Below, piece after piece: positions 1 through 1,645 of a stretch of 64,000 nucleotides of DNA (the first letter of the stretch is position 1; each line of letters starts with the position of its first letter). The notes below the pieces were generated by a model, which was not told the DNA's origin, ran no database searches, and was given only the letters and a program-made list of their open reading frames with translations. Where the stretch lies: NCBI GenBank assembly GCA_024401435.1, contig JAKSLB010000003.1, positions 144,977-208,976 on the forward strand, read 5' to 3'. The translations under genes and the position numbers were made by a program. Source of the stretch: Paludibacteraceae bacterium (GTDB lineage: Bacteria > Bacteroidota > Bacteroidia > Bacteroidales > Paludibacteraceae).

Positions 1-1645
1 AAGTTTTCAACTGACTCAACTGGTAATCAATATACGCATTATTATATAAATTAAATCCCCCCACAGAATTATGGACATTTCCTTTAACTGGATTTTGTAT
101 ATTGTAAGCCAGATTGTTTTCCTCCACCAATATGATATGATCATCGTCATATCCGCAATATTTAAGAGTCCAATACATAGCTAACACGTCTGCTTGATGA
201 CGATAATCCTGCCATGTGTCCGAACCTGCCACCAACAAAGCCCAACGATCATGCAAGACAGGCAACTCGTTTCCTTGAGTATCTGAATCATCTTCAATAT
301 TTTGCATTTGAAAATTCCAAGAAGAGATACTTGATTGAGTACCAAACACACCCTTCGTAGAAAAATCCTCTAAACTGGAAAAAACACCATCTTTAGAATG
401 CCAAAAAACAAAACTAGTATTCTCTCGAATTGATCCATATTTCGAATCAAAAACAAAGGGACCCGTTGCACCAACCACACTGGGCATTTCCCCTTTCTTC
501 AACTGATCTAATGCATATTTCAAATTAGATGATGTATAATTTAATTTTGCCTCTCTCGTGCTCTCTCGTGCTATACTTTTCATTGCATCAATCTGAGTCA
601 TAGGCACTGTCGAATAGTGTTTTGCACACAAGCCTAACCATGTCAGCATCAAGGCATCATAAACCTGTGGTTCTCCATAAACAGGAAATTCATTAAATTT
701 TGTTTCATAAAGAATACGAAATCCATAAGCAGGATCCGCCCCAATTGCCACGCCATACGAGCCTATTACACCATATCCCATACGATCAGGTAATGCAGAA
801 TCAGAGAATACTTGAACAAAAATCTTTCCAGACTCATCATTTGACAACAAAGAATCTATTGTTGCACATAGCGTAGGATTACTGCAAGCAACAATAATGA
901 TTTCACCATTTTCAGCCTTACTGATTAAACTTGATTGCAGGATCTTTTTCAATTCCACTTCTGAAATATTTTCGGATATGTTCAATGTGGTCGAAATATT
1001 CATAGCTCTTTCCGTTGCAACAAAAGGTAACCAGGTAGAGAAACTTTTCCCGTAAGAATCTGTGGTACATATCAAATGTAACTTTGAACCATTATCAGTA
1101 TTCAATGAAGAGAATGATTTTGTCACAGAAAGCAAGGCTTCTGATTGTGTTAAATTCGACTCCGACAAGCACCACAACCAATCACTCCCCACATATTCAC
1201 GTTGTAAATCTATGCTTGTTGCAACAGGTAAGATTAAAGGAATAGGATTTTTTTGATACTGCTTTTTAAAATTATCAAAAATGAAAGCCACATTTTCTGC
1301 TTTGGCAGAACTTTCTGGACCAATCATTGCCACATAATTACTGTCACAAAGGACATTCGTAATAAAAGTATTTAAAGAGAGTTCCGATGCATTTTCATCA
1401 AAAAAGACAAACTGAAAATCATAGGACAAATCATTGTCGCGTTGTGCTTCTCTAATGTTGGCCGCAGTCCATTGTAATGTTCGTTTCCATCGGTCAGTAT
1501 TTTCCAAAGAAACAATCACTGCCACCTTTTGTTTTTTTATGTTTTGTGTTTGTTCACAAGAGATGCATCCTTCATCTTCACATGATATGAAAGAAAAACA
1601 AATGACAACAAATGCCATGATATGAAACCAAAACACCTTAAACAT
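1..1645 (-). CDS. Lipoprotein: periplasmic-binding domain fused to legumain-like (C13) protease domain, 3' end missing
   Basis: The frame is open from an ATG at 1645 to the left edge (548 codons, no stop), so only the N-terminal part is present. Residues 1-26 form a lipoprotein signal ending in F-I-S-C. About residues 35-440 read as a type I periplasmic-binding fold, with MIGPESS, YDALML and an ATGPFVFD segment as in branched-chain amino-acid receptor proteins. From W468 the sequence switches to a caspase-like legumain fold: WALLVAGS, then YRHQADV, then DDDHIILVEEN, then NPVKG and a Y-x5-DY segment, in the order and spacing of peptidase C13. The catalytic His and Cys would lie beyond the edge and cannot be checked. 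Probably exported and outer-membrane or periplasm anchored. The domain calls are strong; the role, for example ligand-gated proteolysis, is inference. Confidence 0.85.
   Translation of the reverse strand, partial: MFKVFWFHIMAFVVICFSFISCEDEGCISCEQTQNIKKQKVAVIVSLENTDRWKRTLQWTAANIREAQRDNDLSYDFQFVFFDENASELSLNTFITNVLCDSNYVAMIGPESSAKAENVAFIFDNFKKQYQKNPIPLILPVATSIDLQREYVGSDWLWCLSESNLTQSEALLSVTKSFSSLNTDNGSKLHLICTTDSYGKSFSTWLPFVATERAMNISTTLNISENISEVELKKILQSSLISKAENGEIIIVACSNPTLCATIDSLLSNDESGKIFVQVFSDSALPDRMGYGVIGSYGVAIGADPAYGFRILYETKFNEFPVYGEPQVYDALMLTWLGLCAKHYSTVPMTQIDAMKSIARESTREAKLNYTSSNLKYALDQLKKGEMPSVVGATGPFVFDSKYGSIRENTSFVFWHSKDGVFSSLEDFSTKGVFGTQSSISSWNFQMQNIEDDSDTQGNELPVLHDRWALLVAGSDTWQDYRHQADVLAMYWTLKYCGYDDDHIILVEENNLAYNIQNPVKGNVHNSVGGFNLYNNAYIDYQLSQLKT

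Follow-up and report, generated by a model that had tools for sequence, protein, structure and literature searches.

The gene at the left edge of the window (the whole stretch of 64,000 nucleotides analyzed here, C128:144977-208976, in an assembly of 3.8 Mb and 204 contigs) joins a receptor-like domain to a legumain-like protease. Within the window, the open reading frame (2-1645, minus strand) encodes 548 amino acids and is still open past the left edge. From this part, a preliminary description had proposed that one frame holds a lipoprotein signal, a type I periplasmic-binding domain, and a legumain-like segment, with the catalytic His and Cys lying beyond the window. Leftward extension in the assembly bore out both points: with the remainder (C128:144456-144976, left of the window), the frame becomes a single lipoprotein of 721 amino acids containing all three parts, of which 548 fall in the window, ending at a stop codon (L003:8457-10622), and carrying His582 and Cys623 with no early stop.

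A lipoprotein joining a binding domain to peptidase C13

The protein starts with a lipoprotein signal peptide (residues 1-22; 1580-1645, minus strand), in which the lipobox Cys22 precedes a stretch of acidic residues (CEDEG) and is invariant in an alignment of nine relatives. An assembly artefact was ruled out as the origin of the fusion, since these nine relatives align over their full length, and many more do so in the locus comparison. A promoter scan near the gene yielded 15 sites, versus a shuffled mean of 12.7.

The legumain-like segment had been placed from W468 onwards, and the PF01650 match indeed starts at residue 467. It extends to residue 711 (profile positions 1-249 of 258, E 2.1e-52, 178.7 bits against a curated cut-off of 22.8), which assigns the region to peptidase C13, and not to another fold, and rules out a chance order of motifs. 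The window contains the first 82 residues of this domain (467-548; 2-247, minus strand), as delimited by Pfam, the legumain alignment, and family conservation, including the S1-type Arg482 and His483 (YRHQAD). The top PDB matches carry the name Legumain (E ~5e-30), and we take this to be the human enzyme. In the alignment with legumain, using the residue numbering that we assume for it, the catalytic His582 (CGHGE) and Cys623 (ETCYAG) correspond to His148 and Cys189, and Arg482, His483, Glu621, and Ser650 to Arg44, His45, Glu187, and Ser216, which presumably have S1 roles, as does Asp231. Across 75 non-redundant copies, used for the residue and Pfam tallies of the fusion, His582, Cys623, Arg482, Glu648, and Ser650 are invariant in 74, the remaining copy being devoid of the region, and the His-Cys dyad is found in these 74 in HG and E-x-C contexts; Glu621 is replaced by Asp in 11 copies.

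Thus, the domain resembles legumain in its nearly complete profile coverage, its dyad, and its S1 counterparts, but differs from it in being preceded on the chain by a lipid anchor and a periplasmic-binding domain, and in having Asn667 in place of Asp231, a position occupied by Asn in 70 of 74 copies. It also lacks the C-terminal inhibitory prodomain of animal and plant legumains, since the protein ends 10 residues past the C13 match; such a prodomain is not a defining feature of the C13 family as a whole. Legumains are established to cut after Asn, and the same P1-Asn specificity is predicted for this C13 domain. Another caspase-fold match in the genome (L002:1210-3225, with a signal-peptide-like start) is better explained as a peptidase C14 domain with WG repeats.

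The binding domain spans residues ~36-445 (311-1540, minus strand), and its assignment to the LivJ/ANF-receptor type relies on the family-level Pfam tally and on PDB profile matches. Here, the preliminary description holds for the family, with ANF_receptor found in 69/75 members and Peripla_BP_6 in 61/75 (E<=0.01), and less firmly for the protein itself: a Pfam scan of the whole protein gave no match for this domain at E<=1, and the domain scanned alone matched ANF_receptor at an E of 0.0086, a weak score below the cut-off. The family profile retrieves leucine-type binding proteins from the PDB (6e-13 for 4gnr, and 7e-10), as well as metabotropic glutamate receptor 1 (5e-5). Around residue 164, the window's protein has an Asn where over 90% of its relatives have an Asp. 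Judging from the PDB relatives of the binding domain, the ligand may be amino-acid-like. The results support the earlier interpretation that a binding domain and a legumain-like protease share one chain, and ligand control of proteolysis would fit the finding that the compared relatives retain both domains together.

The neighbour clusters shared by the compared loci include no transporter gene with a fixed place. An ABC-ATPase cluster occurs in four loci at scattered distances, and is represented in the window's genome by a 545-aa gene two genes upstream, presumably encoding a cytosolic ABC-F protein.

The fusion is a real, patchily distributed Bacteroidales family, kept as a whole in relatives at ~26-38% identity. 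A scan of named genomes gave 265 relatives, and among the best 80, which were kept (L016-L095), nearly all titles are Bacteroidales, including Parabacteroides distasonis An897, Paraprevotella xylaniphila YIT 11841, and Phocaeicola sartorii, while two Fibrobacter titles and one Oscillospiraceae title are those of metagenome bins. In a draw of 300 genomes from the window's own family, 12 matched, namely the window's genome, nine strong positives (one of them truncated at the end of its contig), and two weak ones confined to the C13 part; the fusion is missing from all 15 listed genomes of the same genus. At the level of the order, 6/295 genomes matched at E<=1e-15, the window's own included, and at that of the phylum, 101/395 matched, the listed matches other than the window's copy covering the query only partly.

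Lipoprotein and MACPF genes around the protease

Neighbours were compared in 89 loci, nine from the searched genomes and 80 from the named-genome scan, and neighbour counts were made on 70 non-redundant loci. Genes were called by longest-frame heuristics, by which the protease gene was lost in L042, so that the protease cluster counts 88/89 loci. In most of the 89 loci, the gene immediately upstream of the protease encodes a second lipoprotein, identified as PnrA-like, with Pfam Bmp in 36 of the 60 members scanned, and PDB matches of its profile to Lbp (3.5e-20), TmpC (1.3e-14), and Bmp proteins. Such a receptor lipoprotein gene, from cluster F1 or the related F9, is present in the gene run of 67/70 non-redundant loci, and its frame overlaps that of the protease in 59 of the 70 spacings measured, as calculated from longest-frame starts. 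The core gene pair combines the two folds known from the PnrA/TmpC nucleoside receptors and the LivJ amino-acid receptors; unlike in those systems, one fold is fused to a protease here, and no transporter gene keeps a fixed position among the shared neighbour clusters.

Lipoprotein-like genes are abundant in the same run, even when the core pair is left out (149/201, versus 85/343 of the other genes of the loci). At least two acidic residues, the typical surface-export signal in this group of bacteria, follow the lipid-bearing Cys in 42/66 proteases and 46/59 proteins of the MACPF family, versus 45/126 other lipoproteins of the loci. The fusion lipoprotein is, on this sequence signal, probably surface-exposed.

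The largest set of partners, neighbour family F3, contains 70 proteins, with up to three per locus. Pfam MACPF (PF01823, E<=0.01) is detected in 60 of them, the family label being extended to the other 10, and the exact [YF]GTH motif in 48. The F3 profile finds insecticidal MACPFs, perforin-1, C6, and C9. A MACPF tree resolves three clades with an SH-aLRT support of 100, alpha (~480 aa), beta (~790 aa), and gamma (~575-680 aa), together with a fourth and looser type, delta (support 87). In 13 loci, alpha, beta, and gamma are all present, with one copy of each. A BACON domain is found in most of the types.

In the alpha, beta, and delta types, the linker between the last BACON strand and the MACPF start varies in length and letters, and yet contains one invariant Asn (14/14, 14/14, and 12/12, respectively, in counts that leave out two truncated beta rows and two delta rows with incomplete N-termini). 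This Asn is usually preceded by an acidic residue and followed by a small residue or Phe/Tyr. In alpha, only 14/454 well-filled columns are conserved to 93%, the linker Asn among them. It is less distinctive in beta, where 70/744 columns reach this level and three other Asn columns are conserved as well. The acidic-Asn pattern was found in 35/39 parsed linkers, against a mean of 18.7 and a maximum of 31 in 5000 rounds of shuffling, a result that should not be read as a probability, because the sequences are related; the beta linkers of L038 (misparsed) and L090 (left out of this tally) were read separately. Later-fetched cassettes provided 11 MACPF-family frames, seven of which were parsed, and after setting aside one repeat of an earlier locus, five of the six new linkers have the Asn.

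No conserved linker Asn was found in the gamma proteins, and the short first-gene type (L016, L017, L035, and L136) is devoid of the acidic-Asn motif. Several gamma linkers, e.g., those of L022:3470-5449 and L082:4350-6392, have an Arg after Ser/Thr. This recalls the sites cut by C11 proteases in CDC-like toxins, in the portion of PMC11169675 available, so that two proteases might act on one cassette.

Outside the MACPF family, the F4 partner has an Asn after its N-terminal domain in six of seven aligned proteins, the seventh being shifted by one, and its profile matched no solved relative in the PDB. The F2 lipoproteins contain an Asn that is invariant in 23/23 aligned sequences, within WP[D/E]N in 15, and may be substrates or decoys; their profile gave two weak PDB matches, both at the N-terminal lipoprotein stretch. 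The alignments took in 60/65 members for F1, 23/29 for F2, and 7/8 for F4. Tandem F2 genes are found in L074 (four copies) and L092 (three copies, with a small upstream flank), with no MACPF in the DNA covered. In L066 and L070, the protease gene is followed by tandem lipoproteins of no known kind and by a lipoprotein-like protein with what its motif leads us to take as an AraC-type end. When nine proteins were searched with the PADLOC models of known anti-phage defence systems, no match was obtained at E<=0.01.

Possible roles of the receptor-protease

The domains, catalytic residues, recurrent neighbours, MACPF types, and conserved Asn can be brought together in one reading, to which we give an even chance of being correct as a whole: a ligand-gated asparaginyl endopeptidase at the cell surface would clip co-encoded lipoproteins off their anchors. 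The fusion gene would encode a lipid-anchored receptor-protease, the LivJ-like domain of which recognizes a small molecule, most likely an amino acid or a related compound, and ligand binding would gate the C-terminal legumain-type cysteine protease. In the largest class of loci, the substrates would be MACPF pore-formers, cut between their BACON and MACPF domains and possibly activated or released thereby; in other classes, they would be other large lipoproteins. The PnrA-like, nucleoside-receptor-type lipoprotein might act as a second sensor or a regulator. Such a gated processing protease is in keeping with the lipid anchor of the legumain-type enzyme, the conserved Asn of the partners encoded beside it, and the binding domain retained on its chain. 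Several observations weigh against it: about half of the assessable loci, and the window's genome, have no detected MACPF, the gamma and short first-gene types depart from the linker pattern, and Asn takes the place of Asp near residue 164 of the window's binding domain and, in most copies, at the position of legumain Asp231.

A general surface protease, tuned by nutrient sensing and devoted to foraging or envelope upkeep, would be compatible with binding domains of nutrient-receptor types. The MACPFs would then be separate, co-travelling weapons, and the linker Asn a structural residue, as Asn is able to cap strands and turns. A MACPF-family gene is found in the run of 25/70 loci; among the 51 loci having 4 kb or more of upstream sequence, 24 have one and 27 do not. 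Nevertheless, the linkage to MACPF tracks the protease tree: on one side (41 rows), MACPF is present in 29/34 assessable rows, versus 0/20 on the other (34 rows, with three second copies in tandem arrays left out). These tallies were made by eye on a quick tree with a long-branch warning, on which the place of the window's protein is unsure, and count a MACPF within six genes on the same strand. Along the protease tree, MACPF presence changes six times, against a shuffled mean of 18.1 and a minimum of 11, none of the 2000 shuffles being as low.

The genome draws provide a similar view. In the own-family draw, MACPF was detected in 13/300 genomes, of which G122 alone also carries the protease, with three MACPFs beside it; eight of the nine strong protease positives are in genomes with no detected MACPF. 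The order draw gave 20/295 MACPF-positive genomes, and in both of those that also have the protease, the two lie side by side. The family of G942 (18 genomes) has four protease-positive genomes, which include its only two MACPF-positive ones, and in each of these two the protease and MACPF genes share a contig.

The BACON domain also argues against a general protease, as it is present in 35/70 cassette proteins, versus 1/31 MACPF frames from genomes with no detected protease, some of these control frames being cut by contig ends, the L112 and L115 matches, not recovered by the profile, being left out, and further controls from other families being few. The sole BACON-MACPF protein from a protease-free genome has a linker Asn too, before Pro (EAN-P), which leaves room for a structural role, this control being one protein and therefore thin. 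The F4 partner, although unrelated, has an Asn at the corresponding position, which also speaks against this reading; on balance, we find it rather unlikely.

With the same anatomy and the same cleavage site, the protease could instead be a regulated immunity or shedding factor, removing the producer's own MACPFs when the ligand signals danger, and thereby protecting the cell rather than arming pores; the F2 lipoproteins with their invariant Asn could be decoys or inhibitors in such a scheme. In the accessible part of PMC11169675, by contrast, a two-component pore system of Bacteroidota is activated by cleavage, and self-protection is provided by a surface lipoprotein that blocks the pore; a shedding role is improbable in this light. 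A transpeptidase that cuts after Asn and joins the partner to another surface molecule, with no release, would agree with the matches of the C13 domain to GPI-anchor transamidase (best E 2.6e-23) and to peptide asparaginyl ligases in the PDB, and an Asn with a small residue after it would suit hydrolysis or ligation alike, but the partners are already lipid-anchored on their N-terminal side, so that joining would be needed solely for the released part, which makes this the kind of explanation that we would hardly expect to hold.

The gated processing protease can be developed, somewhat more tentatively, into a complement-like surface cascade. The receptor-protease would sense amino-acid- or nucleoside-type molecules, such as those from lysing cells, and switch on up to three MACPF proteins by cutting at the BACON-MACPF Asn (gamma being cut at another site), the effector having been swapped for other lipoproteins in several lineages, including the window's. 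Vertebrate complement likewise combines a protease with several distinct MACPF proteins, as do the 13 three-type loci, but the protease here is of the C13 and not the serine type, and the comparison is an analogy drawn from genes.

Known systems and the window's own locus

Antibacterial toxins activated by a protease have already been described in Bacteroidota, namely CDC-like pore-formers (PMC11169675) and BcpT (PMC9308784), as stated in the parts of these sources available. The CDC-like two-component toxins share with the present loci several pore components, a lipid-anchored surface cysteine protease, and activation by cleavage, the latter being a proposal here. The C11 protease that activates them, DpnB, was traced to a sensitive strain, and their operon encodes an immunity lipoprotein, two toxins, and a porin, with no protease (PMC11169675, in part). 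Here, by contrast, a C13 sensor-protease is encoded beside the MACPF proteins, and the words 'legumain' and 'C13' occur 0 times in the available text of that article.

The BSAPs, antibacterial MACPF toxins of Bacteroidales, resemble the cassette proteins by their MACPF domain, lipid anchor, and export signal (PMC12853789, 2025, available in part). According to the same excerpt, 35/214 BSAP representatives have a BACON domain, the role of which is stated to be unknown, and the Arg sites of BSAP-1, when tested singly, are not essential; 'legumain' and 'C13' are again found 0 times in it. A MACPF operon of B. thetaiotaomicron has been described with its lipoproteins and porins, and no such protease is named in the accessible section of PMC2954219. 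No earlier description of a sensor-protease/MACPF module was found in open-licence PubMed Central, NCBIfam, or PADLOC.

In the present loci, BACON-MACPF proteins are encoded next to a dedicated sensor-protease of the legumain kind, and most types have an invariant linker Asn, so that the idea of BACON as a cleavable tether becomes directly testable. If correct, the proposed mechanism would give bacterial MACPF proteins a dedicated activating protease under ligand control, and would place a receptor joined to a caspase-fold protease on the bacterial surface.

The role proposed for MACPF-bearing loci is not extended here to the window's own copy, because the window's genome (assembly completeness 93%) gave no MACPF match at E<=1e-3. 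Its PnrA-like gene lies two genes downstream of the protease (L003:5776-6780), and the gene in between encodes a 519-aa lipoprotein with no Pfam family, relatives of which accompany the protease and its PnrA-like companion in L091 and L051. With no MACPF detected in the genome and this lipoprotein gene between the two, the window's copy would have a different partner. All three proteins (3/3) share an Asn with Tyr/Ala and then Thr/Ser after it, and it is a guess, made from these sequences, that the protease cuts the 519-aa lipoprotein.

Two further genes were observed nearby. To the left of the window, behind two opposite-strand genes, a C10 streptopain-type protease is encoded with its own Spi-type (I69) inhibitor domain (L003:1470-2726, minus strand). 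Directly upstream of the fusion, at 1789-2583 of the window (minus strand), a frame of 264 amino acids has a signal-peptide-like start and weak matches to MORN/RHS-type repeats.
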